Positions 2 to 6,435 of a stretch of DNA of 6,435 nt are shown here, one piece after another. Origin of the DNA: Methanolinea sp. (GTDB taxonomy: Archaea; Halobacteriota; Methanomicrobia; Methanomicrobiales; Methanospirillaceae); contig DUGV01000102.1 of NCBI GenBank assembly GCA_013331225.1, positions 1-6,435 on the forward strand, given 5' to 3'. The stretch's first letter is position 1. Each line of letters opens with the position of its first letter. The position numbers and the translations under genes are program-made. The notes beneath the pieces are model-generated. The model saw only the letters and a program-made list of their open reading frames with translations. It did not search any database and was not told the origin of the DNA.

Positions 2-529
2 ACCGGGATCGGTGCAGGGGTCTACGAGCAGGGAAGGCTGCTCTTCGGCGAGGACGGAAACTTTGCGGAGGTCGGACACTTCGTGGTCGAGACCACGTGG
101 AACCTTCCCTGCGGGTGTGGAGGGACCGGGCACTGGGAAGGATGCGGTTCAGGGAGGTTCATCCCCGCGTTCTTCCTTGAGTGGTGCCGATCGTCGAATC
201 ATCGGTCTCCTTTCCGGAACCTTTCCGATGCAGCGGCCATTTTTGCGGCTGCAGCAGGCGGAGACCCGGTCGCAGGGGAGTTTGTCTCGGAGCTTGGAAA
301 GGTGGAGGCGAGAGGGATCTCGCTCCTCATTGCGGCCTATGACCCCAGTCTTATTGTCATCGACGGGAGCGTGGCAAGGAATAACTGGCATATCTTTGAA
401 ACATCTGTCCTCCCCCATGTCCGCTCCGTATCAGGCAAGATCCCGCAGATGCGCCTCAGCCCACTCGGCGGGAACGCACCGCTGCTTGGCGCGGCATGGA
501 GCGTGTTCGACCGGACGCCTGTCCCCTGA
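2..529 (+). CDS. ROK-family sugar kinase/regulator, C-terminal part (5' end outside window)
   Basis: This is the last 175 residues of a ROK (repressor/ORF/kinase) family protein, open from the left edge to a TGA at 527-529. ROK proteins are ATP-dependent hexose or amino-sugar kinases, or related sugar-responsive regulators. Visible family signatures are the glycine loop TGIGAG (2-19), EVGH (68-79), whose His is a zinc ligand in the family, and the zinc segment CGCGGTGHWE (110-139), followed by GSGRF. The third Cys of the usual CxCGxxGCxE pattern is His here (codon 131-133). The C-terminal AAYDPSLIVIDGSVA and SPLGGNAPLLGAA segments also fit the family. The N-terminal ATP-binding DxGxT motif and any DNA-binding domain lie outside the window, so kinase and repressor cannot be separated; lack of visible regulators makes kinase more likely. 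The gene is convergent with the minus-strand gene at 899-1738. Confidence 0.88.
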   Translation, partial: TGIGAGVYEQGRLLFGEDGNFAEVGHFVVETTWNLPCGCGGTGHWEGCGSGRFIPAFFLEWCRSSNHRSPFRNLSDAAAIFAAAAGGDPVAGEFVSELGKVEARGISLLIAAYDPSLIVIDGSVARNNWHIFETSVLPHVRSVSGKIPQMRLSPLGGNAPLLGAAWSVFDRTPVP

Positions 530-898: not shown

Positions 899-1738
899 CT
901 ACTCCTGGAATAGAGGAGGGGTTCGGGAATCCTCCTTCACTACTTCCATATACCACATGGAAAGGACACCCCGGATAATCTCCTTCAGCCGTTCCATGCG
1001 CTGCATGTCAAGAAGGGCGCCCTGCTGTGGGCTCGAATTGCCACCCTCATACAGTGAGCGGTTCACCTCGACCTGGATCCAGGGGATACCCTTGTGCCAG
1101 TAGTGCGCATTCGAGATGAACCCTCCCGAGAACGGGTGGTTGAGCGTGACGCTCCCTGCTCCCGGAAACTCGTCCCGGAACCTTTCTGCCAGCTGCCGGA
1201 TCCACTCCGGCGGGCAGGTACAGAGTGCCCCTCTTCTCGGGTGTCCGTTCCGGTCCCCGTTGTTACCAAGGCATATGAGTGGCCGCGGCTGTCCCTCGTC
1301 AGGCTGGCCTGGCAATCCCACAGGGACCATGCTGTGGCAGTCGAACGCGACTGCGATCTTCCGGCTGTCCAGCAGACTGTCAAGTTTTGCATGGTAAGGG
1401 AAGTAGTGACGCAGGAGGAGCCTGTGAATTGCCTGGATATCTGGCTGCATGCCTTCTTTCCAGACCGGCGCCCCAAGCGAGGTCTGGAACTTGACCACCC
1501 CGTCACGGCGCCGGGGAGGAAGATGGTACGGAGGGCGGTTCAGGTCGACGATAACCCGCGACACCCTGGCGCTGGCAAAGGCTTTCACCTCTGCCTTGAA
1601 CCCAAAAAGACGTTCCGATGCGGGGTCGCTGTAATAGGAGAGTGCAGGCGGATCAAGGGCGACTGCTCCCGCGACCTCCTCCGGGATGCCGACTCCCCCG
1701 TGGGGAATCGAGATGAGAATCGGGAGCCCTGGTGACAT
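899..1738 (-). CDS. N-formylglutamate amidohydrolase-family protein
   Basis: The 279-residue protein belongs to the N-formylglutamate amidohydrolase family (Pfam FGase type), zinc hydrolases related to the carboxypeptidase/aspartoacylase fold. Known members release formate and glutamate from N-formylglutamate in histidine breakdown. Motifs in order are SIPHGG (10-15), SDPASERLFGF (37-47), VDLNRP (64-69), DCHSM (133-137), HPFSGGFIS (201-209) and IQVEVNRSLY (221-230). His13, Glu42 and His135 are the likely metal ligands by analogy with the fold. The length is normal for the family. The ATG at 1738 directly follows the TGA of the acetyltransferase gene (TGAATG on the minus strand), with a G-run about 5 bases upstream acting as ribosome binding site, so translational coupling is likely. 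No hut genes are visible, so the physiological substrate is open; family membership is secure, the exact reaction is not. Confidence 0.9.
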   Translation of the reverse strand: MSPGLPILISIPHGGVGIPEEVAGAVALDPPALSYYSDPASERLFGFKAEVKAFASARVSRVIVDLNRPPYHLPPRRRDGVVKFQTSLGAPVWKEGMQPDIQAIHRLLLRHYFPYHAKLDSLLDSRKIAVAFDCHSMVPVGLPGQPDEGQPRPLICLGNNGDRNGHPRRGALCTCPPEWIRQLAERFRDEFPGAGSVTLNHPFSGGFISNAHYWHKGIPWIQVEVNRSLYEGGNSSPQQGALLDMQRMERLKEIIRGVLSMWYMEVVKEDSRTPPLFQE

Positions 1739-2335
1739 TCACTGCCCCCCCTTGCATGGTACTACCCGGTTGCGGCTCCCGTCAAGGTAGTGCGGGTAAA
1801 AGTCATCGGCCTGGATGCCATAGAAGTGCACATCGTGAAACGACCCCCACTTGCATGCGTGCCCTTTCATTGCACCCTCAAAGTGCATACCGATGCGCAC
1901 GAGCACGCGGGATGAGGGAGTGTTCCAGTCGAGGTGCCTCGCGTAGATGCGGTGTAGGCCGAGGCCGAGGAAGCCAAACTCAAGCAGCGCTCCCGCGGCT
2001 TCAGTCGCGTATCCCCTGCACCGGAACGGCCTTCCTATCCAGTACCCGAGTTCTGCATGGGAATGTGCACAGTTCACCCTGAGGCTTGCAGCACCGGCAA
2101 TGTCGGTGGTCTCCTTCTCGGTTATGGCAAAGATGTAGTGTTCCCCACGCTGCCAGAGGCCCTGGTGCTGCCCTATCCACTGCTCCGCATCCTCCAGGGT
2201 GTAGGGATGGGGGATCTCAAGCACGCCTGCCGCAATGCACATGTCATCGGCATGTTCCTGAACGGACTGGGCATCGTCTATCGAGAAACGTCGGAGCCAT
2301 AACCTCGGCGTATTCAGGATCTCTCGGGGGGGCAT
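1739..2335 (-). CDS. GNAT acetyltransferase, RimJ/RimL type
   Basis: The 198-residue protein is a Gcn5-related N-acetyltransferase of the Acetyltransf_3 (RimJ/RimL-like) group, which transfers acetyl from acetyl-CoA to an amino group on a protein N-terminus or small molecule. It opens with the typical TPRLWLRRF (9-17). The core strand AELGYWIG (94-101) is followed by the acetyl-CoA pyrophosphate loop and helix RGYATEAAGALLEFGF (107-122). The C-terminal NTPSSRVLVRIGMHFEG segment (138-154) carries the family's Asn and Ser followed by the GF/GM turn. ATG at 2335 is the only in-frame ATG near the 5' end; a stop lies only a few codons upstream. It is the first gene of a two-gene operon with the amidohydrolase, and an acetylase beside a deformylase-type hydrolase hints at N-acyl amino acid chemistry. 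The substrate is unknown. Confidence 0.92.
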   Translation of the reverse strand: MPPREILNTPRLWLRRFSIDDAQSVQEHADDMCIAAGVLEIPHPYTLEDAEQWIGQHQGLWQRGEHYIFAITEKETTDIAGAASLRVNCAHSHAELGYWIGRPFRCRGYATEAAGALLEFGFLGLGLHRIYARHLDWNTPSSRVLVRIGMHFEGAMKGHACKWGSFHDVHFYGIQADDFYPHYLDGSRNRVVPCKGGQ

Positions 2336-2500: not shown

Positions 2501-3013
2501 ATGAATACCTCCATCCTTGCCCGGAAGGCCGTGGTGATCGCCTCCCTTGGAGCAGCAGCCATCATCAGCGGGTACTTCGGCCTCGCCCTGTCTCTCGGGA
2601 CCGCCACGGTCATGGACACGCGTGACATTCTTGTCGTGTGTGCCGGGGTGCTTGCCGGCCCTGCAGGAGGCGCACTGGTGGGGCTCCTTGCAGGTCTCCC
2701 TGGACCTGATCCCCTCTCAGAAGTATCACTCTACATGGTTGGCGGCCTCGCCGTCGGGTTCATTGCAAGGTATTGTGCGGCCAATCGGGAATGGATGCCC
2801 ACTGCTGCCCTTGGACTGGGATTCGGGTACGTGCTTTCAGGGGCAATCCTGATGTTCACTTCGTGGTACGACGCGGTTGCGGCGCTTGCGTTCAAGTCCC
2901 TTATCATGCTGAACATCTGTATCCTCGTCCTCTCCATCATCGACTCCCTGGATCACCGGATCTTCTCATGGGACAGGCGGTCTCCGGCCCCTGACTCTTC
3001 CGGCTCGCGGTGA
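2501..3013 (+). CDS. Five-helix membrane protein resembling 5TMR-LYT / ECF S-component proteins
   Basis: The 170-residue protein is almost entirely membrane-embedded, with hydrophobic segments at about 10-32, 42-67, 73-93, 100-119 and 125-149 and a polar, basic C-terminal tail (150-170). The stretch MDTRDILVVCAGVLAGPAGG (38-57), followed by GLLAGL and a GG-containing third helix ending in GFIAR, matches the pattern of the LytS-type 5TM receptor module and of the substrate-binding S components of ECF vitamin transporters, which look alike in sequence. No cytoplasmic kinase, cyclase or histidine-kinase domain follows, so if it is a receptor it stands alone. No ECF A or T genes are visible. The start at ATG 2501 has a weak purine-rich site before it. 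Membrane location is strongly supported; the family is a motif-level impression. Confidence 0.75.
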   Translation: MNTSILARKAVVIASLGAAAIISGYFGLALSLGTATVMDTRDILVVCAGVLAGPAGGALVGLLAGLPGPDPLSEVSLYMVGGLAVGFIARYCAANREWMPTAALGLGFGYVLSGAILMFTSWYDAVAALAFKSLIMLNICILVLSIIDSLDHRIFSWDRRSPAPDSSGSR

Positions 3014-3627
3014 GGCGGGGCATTCTCTCTTGCCTGACCATTCCCCCCGTGTGGACCCTGGCTCATTTCCATAAAGACAGAGCAAGGCAGGGTAACCCCC
3101 GGATCTGCCCATTATGAAGGGCAGAAGGGGATGTTGCACATCCATTCATTCCATGTTGATCGAGGAATGCTGGGACAAGAGGTTCACTGTAAGGCTCGTT
3201 TTCTGTTGGGGTATAGACAGAGAAAAGGGCAGTTCACATGAAGAGCCAAAGGTCATCCAGGCATCCGGCCGCGAGGTACCCGATGCGGCCAAGTTGGGGA
3301 GTTGATACCGGATGACCAGGCCATTCAAGGTGTGGAGGGCTGCAGACCGTCCACATGGAGGGTGCCAGACAACAAATCAGAGATCATGGAATCATATGCA
3401 TGATCACTGTCCAGCATGGCAGATATGGTTTCCACTGACGATAAAGATTATGTCATGGCTTGATGAACCAGTGGATACGGGGATCCAAAATCTCCCATAT
3501 CTTGTTCATTCTCTAAAAATATCCAATATTATGGTTCAAATTATTCACCCGGGGCGTATTCACAGGATTATTGTTTTATGGTTGAGAGGCGCTCTTTGAA
3601 TCAGTGACAGGGTCAGGCAATCAGTGT
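3014..3627. other. Long gap without a convincing gene
   Basis: Between the membrane-protein stop and the promoter of the small Cys-rich gene I see no protein I can defend. Two open frames (3114-3305 and 3312-3599, both +) give unbalanced, domain-free translations without good start context. The left two thirds hold the hairpin run described separately, and bases from about 3490 to 3600 are clearly more AT-rich than the surroundings. A weak TATA-like TTTCCATAAAG at about 3067-3077 could start a transcript near 3100. Confidence 0.5.
3104..3474. ncRNA. Candidate structured RNA region (run of perfect hairpins)
   Basis: Consecutive perfect stems can be read directly: TCTGCCC 3104-3110 / GGGCAGA 3119-3125; GGATGT 3129-3134 / ACATCC 3138-3143; CATTCC 3147-3152 / GGAATG 3164-3169; GGCTC 3193-3197 / GAGCC 3243-3247 around TTTTCTGT 3199-3206 paired to ACAG and AAAA at 3217-3226 with a two-base bulge; GGTCATCC 3251-3258 / GGATGACC 3310-3317 around GGCCGC 3267-3272 / GCGGCC 3285-3290; TGTGGA 3331-3336 / TCCACA 3350-3355; GATCATG 3382-3388 / CATGATC 3399-3405; CCACTG 3432-3437 / CAGTGG 3469-3474. 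There is no Rfam family I recognise, and the strand is not determined. It could be a cis-acting region or a decayed element instead of an RNA gene. Confidence 0.35.
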
Positions 3628-3637
3628 GCATATAAGC
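3628..3637 (+). promoter_or_regulatory. TATA box of the Cys-rich small-protein gene
   Basis: GCATATAAGC is the best TATA box in this gap. With the usual 25-base spacing, transcription would start near 3657, giving a leader of about 29 bases to the ATG at 3686. The box lies inside the first codons of the longer reading frame that opens at 3626, which argues against that earlier start. CCATG (3659-3663) and CATGG (3675-3679) could form a small leader hairpin. Confidence 0.5.
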
Positions 3638-3685
3638 AAACGATGGCTTGACATATCCCATGCACCCCATATCACATGGAAACTA

Positions 3686-3862
3686 ATGACGAACGACGTC
3701 AAAAAGACCTGCGATGTATGCGGGAGGAAAGCCATCGGCATCCAGGTACTGGGATGCTGCGGGTCGGTAGTCTGTGAAGTGCATGCAGAGGACCGGCTCA
3801 AACACATGAGCCCAGGTGAGAAGATCGAGTGGGGTTCATGCTTCTTTTACCGGTACGAGTGA
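3686..3862 (+). CDS. Small Cys-rich, probably zinc-binding protein
   Basis: The 58-residue protein has the pattern Cys9-x2-Cys12, Cys24-Cys25, Cys30-x2-His33 and Cys52. CDVCGRKA followed by GCCG and VVCEVHAE resembles the knuckle pairs of treble-clef or AN1/B-box-like zinc fingers, so binding of one zinc ion, perhaps two, is likely. The C-terminal half (SPGEKIEWGSCFFYRYE) is not recognised. Codon choice shows the strong third-position GC typical of the neighbouring genes, which supports coding. The frame is open from 3626, giving 78 residues, but the TATA box at 3628-3637 favours the ATG at 3686; a weak GGA lies a few bases upstream. It is monocistronic and convergent with the DAC gene. Its role could be nucleic-acid or protein binding; there is no evidence to choose. 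Confidence 0.72.
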   Translation: MTNDVKKTCDVCGRKAIGIQVLGCCGSVVCEVHAEDRLKHMSPGEKIEWGSCFFYRYE

Positions 3863-4005: not shown

Positions 4006-5712
4006 TTAAAAAATCAGCGATTTTACACTCTGCCCGTCGCGAAAGACCGTCAGGCGGCCCCCTGTCTCTGAGACAACAATTCCCACCGCCCCGGTCACCA
4101 CAGTCATTGCCGCAACAGAGCGGTGGCGGGTGCCGTACCCGGCAGGAAGCGCGAGGGGGACGTCACCCGGAAGGAACTGCCGCCCGGACGCCACGATGAA
4201 CCCGTCTCCCCCGATGATGAACCCGCCGTCGAGCATCGCAAAATTCTTGATGCAGGTCTTGTTCCCGGGGTTTCCGACGTACCTCATTTCGTTCTCCATT
4301 GAATTGAACGGGTTGAGGATAAGCGGCTGGGATTTGGCCATGACCGAGGAGGCGTCGCCAACCAGGAACGATGTCCCGACCCGTTTTCCCTCCCAGCCCT
4401 CCCGCGAGATCTCGACGCATATGGAGAAGACATCGTCAAAGACATCCCGCTTGATATCGGTCCCTTTGAGGAGGCGTGTCCTCCAGGGGTCGGTGCGGAT
4501 GCCGCACGAGTCAGGGCGGGAATAATCGGTGATGTCTTCGCCTACGCAGACGATGTCCGGGACGACCCCGTCTCTCTCAACCCCCACCATCTTCCACGCG
4601 ATGCAGGCCCTGCGCAAGCCGGGGAGCGCATGTTCCACCGCGATGACCGAAGATTCATCTGCGTTCCTCGAACATCCGGAAAGCATTGTCATGAAGTCGC
4701 GCGCCGATTGCGAACCGGGTGGAACCAGCGTGCCGATGACATTGCTTCCTGCAACATCAACCGACCGGAACCCAAACATCATCTCGGCTGCGGGATTGCA
4801 GTACACAATATTCCCATCAGAGTCCGTCCGGATGACAATTGCCCCCATGCTCTCGAAAACCGCGCGATACCTGCTCTCGATCTCCATGACCTTCTGGTCA
4901 AAAGACCGCTGCAGTTCGAGAAGCGACTGGTGGCAGCGGATGTCCTCGCAGATGCAGAGATACATGTCCTCCCCCTCCTTCCCGGCAAGCTTTCGCATTT
5001 TCAGCCTGATGGGGACATGAGCACCATCCCTCTTCCTGAGCACTACCTCTCTCTGAACCCAGCCCGCACCGCCCTTCGACTGCCTTCCCAGCTCCCCAAA
5101 CCACCTCATGTCCTCTTCGCGGGGGAGGATGGAATGGAACGGTCTCCCCGCCATCGTGGAGGGAGAGTATCCCAGGATATGCGCCATCTCTTCGTTCATC
5201 CAGGAGATATCGGGATGTGTCAGGATAGAGAGAGGGACAGGAGCCGAAGAGATGACGTCGTAAGGATGCCCGAACGACGCTTCGGAATCGCGCCTGGCAT
5301 TCCTGCCTTTCATCAATTGAGTGAGGTTCCTGCCCAGGTCAGAGAAGAGTGCCGGGAGGCTGGAAGACCCCTGGAGCGGGAACTCCATCCTCTGGTGCGA
5401 GTCCTCCACCACGATAGTATCCCCTGCCTGGAGGGTGAACTGGGACGAACCACGCCGTTTCCGTTCGTTCTTCAGTCTTACGAGGGGGATGTCGCGGGAT
5501 GACGCAACGGCCTCCAGCCTCGAGCCGTCCCGACTGGAATCATTGGAGATGACCAGGGAGTAAGAGCGGGCGAAGAGAAGTTCGATACCCTCCCTTGAAG
5601 AAGGGACACGCTCGACGGCATATCCTTTCTGCGTGGAGAGATAGTCTCCGAACAGCGAGATGAGGTCGGTCCGGTCATCGACGAGCAGTATGTGAACCTT
5701 GTCAGGCGGCAT
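4006..5712 (-). CDS. Receiver-PAS-PAS-diadenylate cyclase (DAC) fusion protein
   Basis: The 568-residue soluble protein has a receiver-like domain (about 5-85), a linker, PAS domain 1 (about 150-258), a short helical linker (261-282), PAS domain 2 (about 282-398) and a C-terminal DAC domain (about 420-568). DAC domains join two ATP into c-di-AMP, a second messenger tied to potassium and osmotic control. DAC evidence is GKRVGTSFLVGD (442-453), NPFNSMEN (467-474), the metal/catalytic DGG (495-497; DGA in most DACs), GTRHR (527-531), the nucleotide-binding RHR signature, and VVSETGG (546-552). The order and spacing resemble archaeal DacZ. The receiver keeps the acidic pair Asp12-Asp13, but the phosphoacceptor position is Asn57 (SLVISN) with Asp58 beside it, so phosphorylation is doubtful. 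The PAS domains show WMNEEMAHILGYS and VYCNPAAEMMFGF motifs. The start has a GGGAAGAGAG site directly before ATG. It lies 66 bases after the SIS gene. DAC assignment is confident; activity is inferred. Confidence 0.9.
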   Translation of the reverse strand: MPPDKVHILLVDDRTDLISLFGDYLSTQKGYAVERVPSSREGIELLFARSYSLVISNDSSRDGSRLEAVASSRDIPLVRLKNERKRRGSSQFTLQAGDTIVVEDSHQRMEFPLQGSSSLPALFSDLGRNLTQLMKGRNARRDSEASFGHPYDVISSAPVPLSILTHPDISWMNEEMAHILGYSPSTMAGRPFHSILPREEDMRWFGELGRQSKGGAGWVQREVVLRKRDGAHVPIRLKMRKLAGKEGEDMYLCICEDIRCHQSLLELQRSFDQKVMEIESRYRAVFESMGAIVIRTDSDGNIVYCNPAAEMMFGFRSVDVAGSNVIGTLVPPGSQSARDFMTMLSGCSRNADESSVIAVEHALPGLRRACIAWKMVGVERDGVVPDIVCVGEDITDYSRPDSCGIRTDPWRTRLLKGTDIKRDVFDDVFSICVEISREGWEGKRVGTSFLVGDASSVMAKSQPLILNPFNSMENEMRYVGNPGNKTCIKNFAMLDGGFIIGGDGFIVASGRQFLPGDVPLALPAGYGTRHRSVAAMTVVTGAVGIVVSETGGRLTVFRDGQSVKSLIF

Positions 5713-5757
5713 CTCTCTTCCCTATCCCGGGGTATGTGTGTGACTGGAAGGGCAGAC

Positions 5758-5766
5758 GGATAAAAG
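5758..5766 (-). promoter_or_regulatory. Possible TATA box for the DAC gene
   Basis: On the minus strand CTTTTATCC lies about 50 bases upstream of the DAC ATG, giving a leader of about 20-25 bases. It suggests that the DAC gene may have its own promoter in the 66-base gap besides read-through from the SIS gene. Confidence 0.35.
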
Positions 5767-5778
5767 TCTTCCTGGCAT

Positions 5779-6321
5779 TCAGATATGGCGTTCCCCGACC
5801 CTCTCCGGTGGGATGCCATGGAGACGCCCATACCATGTCACGAAGATCTCCTGGAAGTACCATGCTGCAATCTCGAAGTCCCCTCCTCCATAGATAACGC
5901 CACCATCCATCGGAAAGAGAATGATCGTAAGGGAAGAACCCCTTGCGAGAGGGGAAGCAGGATCACCGGTGATCGCCACGCAGCGTGCGCCTGCGCCCCG
6001 TGCGCTCTCGAGGGAGCAGATCACCTCTTTCCGGTCGCCGGACTTCGAGAAAAGGATGACAACATCATCCTGCCGTATGGGGTCCCGGACCTGGTCCCCG
6101 AGCCAGAAGACCTGTTGTTCCGGGGCAAGGAAGTGCCGAAGCCGTATTGCCATTGCAAGACCCGCAGTCCCGCTCCTGCCGAATCCATAGAGATGGATGG
6201 CAGGCGAGGACTCGATAAGGCCTGCAAGGGCCCTCGATTGCCGTTCGCCTTCGACCAGGGTGCCGGCAAGCCGCTTTAAATATGCACTGTACTCATCGGC
6301 AATTCTTGACATATCCTGCAT
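5779..6321 (-). CDS. SIS-domain protein, 6-phospho-3-hexuloisomerase-like
   Basis: The 180-residue protein is a single SIS (sugar isomerase) domain close in length and motif order to archaeal 6-phospho-3-hexuloisomerase (HxlB/PHI), which interconverts 3-hexulose 6-phosphate and fructose 6-phosphate in the ribulose monophosphate pathway. Signatures are a helical N-terminus, LYGFGRSGTAG (44-54) with the first phosphate-binding loop, DDVVILFSKSG (85-95) with the second, GARCVAITGD (111-120), GGGDFE (145-150), where Glu150 aligns with the conserved Glu of PHI, and the C-terminal ERH (177-179). ATG 6321 has an AAAGGGG site at good spacing; a second ATG three codons later is possible. No hexulose-phosphate synthase is visible beside it, so another phosphosugar isomerase or binding role is possible. 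It is co-oriented with, and 66 bases upstream of, the DAC gene. SIS membership is firm; PHI activity is inferred. Confidence 0.88.
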   Translation of the reverse strand: MQDMSRIADEYSAYLKRLAGTLVEGERQSRALAGLIESSPAIHLYGFGRSGTAGLAMAIRLRHFLAPEQQVFWLGDQVRDPIRQDDVVILFSKSGDRKEVICSLESARGAGARCVAITGDPASPLARGSSLTIILFPMDGGVIYGGGDFEIAAWYFQEIFVTWYGRLHGIPPERVGERHI

Positions 6322-6403
6322 TGAATGATCCCCTTTACACCATTGAACTGGTATTGGGCTTATGAGAAGTAATGGATTTCGGAAGGGATGAATGTGAAGG
6401 GGA

Positions 6404-6435
6404 CGCCCCAGCCGGGATTCGAACCCGGGTCGGAA
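6404..6435 (-). tRNA. 3' end of a tRNA gene (identity not determinable)
   Basis: On the minus strand the T arm is CCGGG-TTCGAAT-CCCGG (6428-6412), followed by the acceptor strand CTGGGGC (6411-6405) and discriminator G (6404). The next bases are TCC, so CCA is not encoded, as is common in archaea. TTCCGAC (6435-6429) would be the end of the variable region. The anticodon lies outside the window. A discriminator G would fit tRNA-Asp or tRNA-Ser, but this is not enough to decide. Confidence 0.9.

Follow-up and report, generated by a model that had tools for sequence, protein, structure and literature searches.

The stretch of DNA analysed here (the window: 6,435 nucleotides from Methanolinea sp., assembly GCA_013331225.1, contig DUGV01000102.1) carries a gene in which a diadenylate cyclase (DAC) domain is fused to PAS domains in an archaeon. 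The more interesting finding concerns the lineage as a whole: the window's family has swapped its synthase of cyclic di-AMP (c-di-AMP) for sensor-fused versions, DacZ_A, the Pfam N-terminal domain of the archaeal synthase DacZ, being over its cut-off in 1 of the 108 family genomes versus 116 of the 124 genomes of the same order outside the family. Ahead of the PAS domains lies an aspartate-less pseudoreceiver, which by its alignment is probably dead as a phosphate switch, and on balance we favour the view that the window protein is a one-component diadenylate cyclase, predicted to be gated by its PAS domains.

An open reading frame (ORF) occupies exactly positions 4006-5712 of the minus strand and encodes 568 amino acids with no internal stop; the plus frame contains stops. 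A chance ORF is ruled out by full-length relatives (seven proteins including the window's own, 44-100% identical over 100% of the length), and an assembly chimera by four relatives in which both the fusion and the neighbouring genes recur. The initial annotation had proposed that DAC is fused to PAS in this archaeon, and Pfam bears this out: DAC (PF02457) matches residues 437-561 with 50.5 bits against a cut-off of 27, and the PAS models PF00989 (69 bits) and PF13426 (63.9 bits) are each over cut-off in two stretches, at about residues 150-260 and at 281-396. The DAC motifs on which that proposal was built (GTSFLVGD at 446-453, DGG at 495-497, GTRHR at 527-531 and SETGG at 548-552) all stand where it had placed them. 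The best NCBIfam DAC model for the protein is DacZ (102.7 bits over residues 420-563, against an equivalog cut-off of 430), and DacZ_A has no match in the window protein or in its own genome, which is 68% complete. No membrane helix was found in the protein by hydropathy. When the whole AlphaFold2 model was searched with Foldseek, the first 50 matches were PAS proteins only, with DosP the best of them, and a separate DAC-only model was therefore searched, in which the DAC fold is present. Lack of a DAC match or of a DAC fold, either of which would have spoken against the initial annotation, was thus looked for, and both match and fold were found.

DAC occurs in 100 of the 108 genomes of the window's family, including all 59 of the good ones, and in 76 of 80 and 43 of 44 genomes of the same order outside it. 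We fetched 159 of the 162 family matches (one each is missing from genomes G045, G046 and G099) and labelled architectures by single-linkage BLAST clusters of the N-terminal parts, with Pfam anchors for 20 of 166 proteins and for the window's. By these labels, 108 of the 159 have the pseudoreceiver-PAS-PAS-DAC layout (hereafter the PAS type), 25 are PKD-membrane-DAC, 13 membrane-TPR-DAC, 6 DacZ-like and 7 single or partial; two members of the TPR cluster, L014 and L040, joined at a looser cut-off only and lie outside the Pfam-scanned set. The initial annotation had proposed a survey of the architecture, and this placed the PAS type in 86 of the 99 family genomes with fetched DAC loci (52 of the 59 good ones) and also in other families of the order. 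DacZ_A is over its cut-off in 117 of the 232 genomes of the whole order, hence the 116 of 124 outside the family; within the family, one further match lies below the cut-off, and five more proteins cluster with DacZ by BLAST and have no DacZ_A match over cut-off. The initial annotation was right that ordinary archaeal DacZ pairs DAC with a different, non-PAS N-terminus. DacZ and the PAS type share none of the 99 family genomes.

A curiosity confined to the window or its genus is rejected by these family-wide counts and by the protein database, where the DAC part of a Methanoregula protein drew 864 matches and PAS was present in all of the 120 matches listed, among them one from Methanoregula formicica that UniRef names 'Diadenylate cyclase'. 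A candidate had to be 0.55-1.75 times as long as the query, which kept the short DacZ out of this search, and a second, whole-protein search brought no further DAC relative, its candidate list having filled with PAS proteins. Outside the family, 14 DAC loci were fetched, selected by frame length or low rank. Nine of them have a PAS-type match that spans 309-392 residues in the N-terminal part, in L254 and L258 the match spans only 87-118 residues, and the other three are multi-membrane DACs. DAC frames with 8-9 predicted membrane helices were seen at L252, L253 and L259 (genomes G131, G026 and G130, of another family); CdaA has three membrane helices.

A tree of 62 of the 166 DAC domains, from which near-copies and short domains had been removed, was made by a quick search with no outside root. 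In it DacZ is separated from the rest with a support of 100, and the PAS type falls in one 30-row clade (support 95) together with the odd rows L087 and L022 and two partial rows. The window's clade of five members (support 100) lies within an 11-row subclade of second copies (support 96), and identity between the window protein and the 18 main-type rows of our alignment A2 is 31-35%. Judged from its sequence, the window gene is a second copy that has diverged. Its own genome holds three DAC genes, namely the window copy, the main-type L001 and the PKD-membrane-DAC L002. The last (L002 352-1902, contig C129) joins two stretches of PKD and two predicted membrane helices to a DAC domain, and is probably a cyclase inside the cell with its sensor outside. 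TPR repeats together with two predicted membrane helices were seen in the DAC proteins at L033 1480-2811 and L004 616-1905, which possibly correspond to the DacW type. A very divergent DAC protein of 339 amino acids was also noted in genome G024 (L070 2505-3524), with an end branch of 3.1 and a GARHIFA motif.

The initial annotation had read the first 400 residues as a receiver-like domain plus two PAS domains; the PAS part stands, and the receiver is probably not a working phosphate switch. Response_reg (PF00072) reaches 15.9 bits over residues 8-56 against a cut-off of 30.2, and the window protein has Asn57 in the acceptor column. This column was read in 101 complete members of the 108, leaving out seven 5'-open proteins, with the 17 best-scoring of the 28 receiver matches in the same genome as controls. 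Asp occupies it in 17 of 17 controls and in 0 of 101 DAC-linked receivers, where we found Tyr (62), Pro (14), Cys (8), Asn (5) and others (12). Nine further receivers from other families of the order, read by eye, also have no acceptor Asp. Other receiver-site residues are often lost as well (Thr or Ser, 39 of 101; Lys, 29 of 101). Asp lies one column later in 10 of 101, the whole window clade included, where a shifted acceptor is conceivable though improbable. Phosphorelay output was rejected on the count of 0 in 101, and a phosphorelay role for the DAC-linked receivers is unlikely. Aspartate-less receivers make up to 10% of archaeal receivers, most of them in Halobacteria and Methanomicrobia, according to the excerpt available of PMC4395418, and the window protein resembles them in having a receiver without the Asp. 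The main text of that paper has no word beginning 'DAC', and that of the archaeal two-component census PMC5847659 has none beginning 'diadenylate', 'DAC' or 'c-di'.

In comparison with CdaA, the catalytic Asp495 (the Asp of DGA), Gly527-His530 (GTRH, with Thr528-Arg529-His530) and Ser548 are all in place in the window protein; the side chains of the CdaA site include Asp71, Thr102, Arg103, His104, Ser122 and Glu124 (PMC7288161, excerpt). Asp495, Arg529, His530 and Ser548 are invariant over the 166 fetched DAC domains. At position 497, 146 of these have Ala (DGA) and 6 have Gly (DGG), and at position 550, 158 have Ser and 8 have Thr; all five members of the window clade read DGG, GTRHRS and SETGG, and all 12 DacZ-like proteins have DG followed by Val, Met or Ile, GGRH followed by Arg or Leu, and SESGG. 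The second Glu is thus missing across the archaeal set, and its loss is therefore not by itself the sign of a dead enzyme. The window gene is under purifying selection, with a whole-gene dN/dS of 0.12-0.15. By domain, over four pairs, dN/dS is 0.069-0.095 for DAC, 0.065-0.11 for the second PAS domain, 0.09-0.21 for the first and 0.16-0.23 for the receiver, values that are rough because dS exceeds 1 in most comparisons. Against the nearest relative, L052, dS over 4006-6321 of the window jumps from 0.24-0.26 (the upstream SIS-domain gene and residues 1-130) to 1.2-1.8 (PAS and DAC), from which there is probably a recombination break near residues 130-150.

Based on these observations, we propose the following model. 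The DAC domain would make c-di-AMP from two ATP, with the two PAS domains, rather than a phosphorelay, as the switch of the cyclase. The Asp-less receiver probably serves as a docking or dimer module, and the PAS pair, joined by long predicted helices, would bring about dimerisation. We infer that ligand binding by PAS would make two DAC domains face each other, as DAC catalysis requires, and that the c-di-AMP formed would act on ion and osmotic balance; in the window copy a sugar-phosphate-binding type of SIS-domain protein may be a partner. PAS gating of c-di-AMP output, as the initial annotation had predicted, is plausible.

Several observations weigh against this model and against a general replacement of DacZ. 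The whole-protein model (mae13ce69e194) has a predicted template modelling score (pTM) of 0.49, so the arrangement of the domains is without a confident prediction. No known PAS cofactor motif was recognised by eye in the window protein, and of the six cluster members scanned in addition to the window's, three (L089, L060 and L101) have no Pfam receiver match at E values up to 0.1. Few clades have changed as much as the window's, with DGG, Thr550 and a long branch of 0.61, and Thr550 sits where CdaA has the site-lining Glu124 (PMC7288161, excerpt). DHH and TrkA_C proteins also serve other functions. Finally, 7 of the 9 outside-family genomes with the PAS type (G126, G127, G130, G131, G162, G211 and G212) also keep DacZ_A. 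Replacement is therefore not a general rule, the idea that DacZ and the PAS type are mutually exclusive fails outside the family, and there the PAS type is mostly an addition rather than a replacement.

Of the alternatives, the one that survives best, though we consider it unlikely, is that the window copy has weak or no cyclase activity and, as a paralogue that binds ATP or c-di-AMP, controls the main copy through mixed dimers. The long branch, the rarity of DGG and Thr550 outside the clade and the presence of L001 and L002 in the same genome would all agree with this. Given that the Asp, Arg-His and Ser are kept, that the DAC domain has a dN/dS as low as that of the second PAS domain and below that of the receiver, and that every DacZ-like protein has a small residue at the Glu position and a Val, Met or Ile after DG, we prefer a working cyclase. 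We think it improbable, more so than a dead paralogue, that the PAS domains only hold the dimer of a constitutive enzyme regulated by its expression. Tandem PAS domains can act as dimer modules, and the lack of a recognised cofactor motif fits such a role; however, the PAS part is kept in the family, and in the sister DAC lineages its place is taken by sensor-type modules of other kinds (PKD or TPR, with membrane helices), a sign that the input varies. That the protein is a response regulator, whose receiver is phosphorylated by a histidine kinase to control the cyclase, is very improbable given the acceptor column and the frequent loss of the other site residues, even though the N-terminus is receiver-like, the main-type L001, L030 and L005 exceed the Response_reg cut-off (41.3, 35.7 and 43.6 bits), and a PAS-HATPase kinase gene adjoins the main-type copy of genome G011, with a 71% identical ORF in the same place in the window's own genome.

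Five archaeal DAC classes, DacV to DacZ, were named by Corrigan and Gruendling in 2013 according to the excerpt of PMC6741144, which gives Methanosphaerula palustris as an example of DacV, Methanospirillum hungatei of DacW and Methanoregula boonei A7I8S2 of DacX. We take genome G016 to be Methanoregula boonei; its only DAC match, L030, is receiver-PAS-PAS-DAC by Pfam and falls in one DAC-tree clade with the window type. On that assumed identity, DacX very likely has this layout, which seems already to be catalogued under that name, the class being set here by its listing in PMC6741144 and not by its original definition. The implication of the initial annotation that the architecture is exceptional in archaea does not hold, given 86 of 99 family genomes and a class apparently listed as DacX in the excerpt of PMC6741144. 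Its interpretation was thus partly supported; it missed the spread of the layout, the lost acceptor and the second-copy status. The layout is widespread and apparently catalogued, and the window gene appears to be a divergent variant of that class: from DacX, listed in that excerpt with Methanoregulaceae examples, it differs in DGG, SETGG and a candidate SIS partner gene.

The window DAC resembles DacZ (CdaZ) in its nearest NCBIfam model, but the protein lacks DacZ_A and the tree splits the two groups. The Pfam entry describes DacZ_A as a 'probable sensor domain', and a regulatory role has been suggested for the DacZ N-terminal domain from its fold (PMC6741144, excerpt). Unlike DisA and CdaA/DacA, the window protein has neither a DNA-binding part nor a membrane helix, and identity in its fold matches is 15-24%. 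Similar in layout are DosP and other bacterial PAS-gated cyclic-dinucleotide enzymes, with tandem PAS ahead of the enzyme. DosP breaks c-di-GMP and binds haem, whereas the window enzyme is a DAC and shows no haem His at the place where DosP and FixL have it. In open-licence literature on archaeal or PAS-linked cyclases, judged mostly from listings, we found no experiments on such a protein and, apart from the classes listed in PMC6741144, no paper that deals with one.

The neighbouring genes (Table 1) offer a candidate partner. Among named models HxlB fits the SIS protein best, though far under its cut-off (65 bits against 160), and the protein is putatively of the sugar-phosphate type. Its gene is in the same place in all four relatives with a window-clade DAC (59-91% identity), thus in five of five genomes of the clade with the window, and beside no other DAC locus within the fetched flanks, a comparison for which 108 of 166 loci had at least 600 bp upstream of the DAC start; two relatives at 44-46% identity (P0006 and P0007) were left out of the neighbour comparison. 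A tRNA-Arg(CCG) gene lies directly upstream of the SIS-DAC pair in all four relatives and has an 86% match here, from which SIS and DAC probably form one transcription unit; the SIS protein may be a partner of the DAC. ARAGORN called no tRNA in the window's contig, which has two N at the tRNA-Arg site, and Rfam and tRNA scans of the window found nothing.

Channel genes near DAC copies hint at osmotic targets without proving them. In three of the four relatives (by Pfam for two) the opposite strand carries an MscS channel gene at a distance of a few genes; none was found in the piece covered of the fourth. Two apparent genes close to the relatives' copy, an MscS of 544 aa and an ORF of 149 aa, were rejected, as they overlap hypD on the other strand; MscS itself is supported but shorter. 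In Haloferax, dacZ and mscS2 share one operon (PMC6741144, excerpt). Beside the main-type DAC of G011 lie, on the same strand, an Ion_trans_2 channel gene and a DEAD-box helicase (L241 9778-10671, 8260-9591, 6465-8132), and relatives of both also occur in the G006 piece. A small Cys-rich ORF (3626-3862, plus strand; CxxC, later Cys/His), convergent with the DAC gene, is 68-76% identical in all four relatives and has no Pfam family above cut-off.

Table 1. Features of the window, with positions in the 6,435-nucleotide stretch.
Feature	Position	Strand	Evidence
Pseudoreceiver-PAS-PAS-DAC protein gene, 568 aa	4006..5712	-	Pfam; full-length relatives; four syntenic orthologues; whole-gene dN/dS
Receiver-like domain without phosphoacceptor Asp, residues 6-130	5323..5697	-	Response_reg 15.9 bits (below cut-off); alignment to 17 same-genome receivers
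Codon 57, Asn in place of the phosphoacceptor Asp (then Asp58)	5542..5544	-	Alignment
Long predicted helix, receiver to first PAS, residues 116-147	5272..5367	-	AlphaFold2 model mae13ce69e194
First PAS domain, residues 150-258	4939..5265	-	
Long predicted helix between PAS domains, residues 259-288	4849..4938	-	AlphaFold2 model
Second PAS domain, residues 281-396	4525..4872	-	
DAC domain, residues 410-566	4015..4485	-	
GTSFLVGD motif, residues 446-453	4354..4377	-	
DGG motif, residues 495-497, catalytic Asp495	4222..4230	-	
GTRHR motif, residues 527-531	4120..4134	-	
SETGG motif, residues 548-552	4057..4071	-	
SIS-domain (sugar-phosphate isomerase-like) gene, 180 aa, directly upstream, 66 bp gap	5779..6321	-	PF01380 54.7 bits
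tRNA-Arg(CCG) gene, 3' part, cut by window edge	6401..6435	-	blastn of L233 tRNA to whole contig: 6467-6401, 86%
N-formylglutamate amidohydrolase family	899..1738	-	Pfam; near DAC in 3/4 relatives' pieces
GNAT acetyltransferase	1739..2335	-	Pfam; near DAC in 3/4 relatives' pieces
5TMR-LYT membrane protein	2501..3013	+	Pfam; near DAC in 4/4 relatives
ROK sugar kinase, end	2..529	+	Pfam

Joining these strands, we put forward tentatively, and with more doubt than confidence, the following account. The near-universal archaeal synthase would have been displaced in this family by one-component cyclases whose sensors have been exchanged (an intracellular pseudoreceiver-PAS-PAS, PKD on the outer side of the membrane, membrane-TPR), with up to four DAC genes in a genome; loss of the Asp would have cut the phosphorelay, leaving PAS signals to set c-di-AMP directly; and in the window clade the SIS protein would inform the cyclase of the sugar-phosphate status, in parallel to the link between CdaA and GlmM in Firmicutes. 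In this receiver lineage the phosphorylation site is gone from all 101 complete members examined, and it is likely that the c-di-AMP output of the family is set by a direct internal signal. In most members of this family, cultured Methanoregula included, recognisable sensor domains are fused to the cyclase, which makes the regulation of c-di-AMP synthesis in archaea a testable question.
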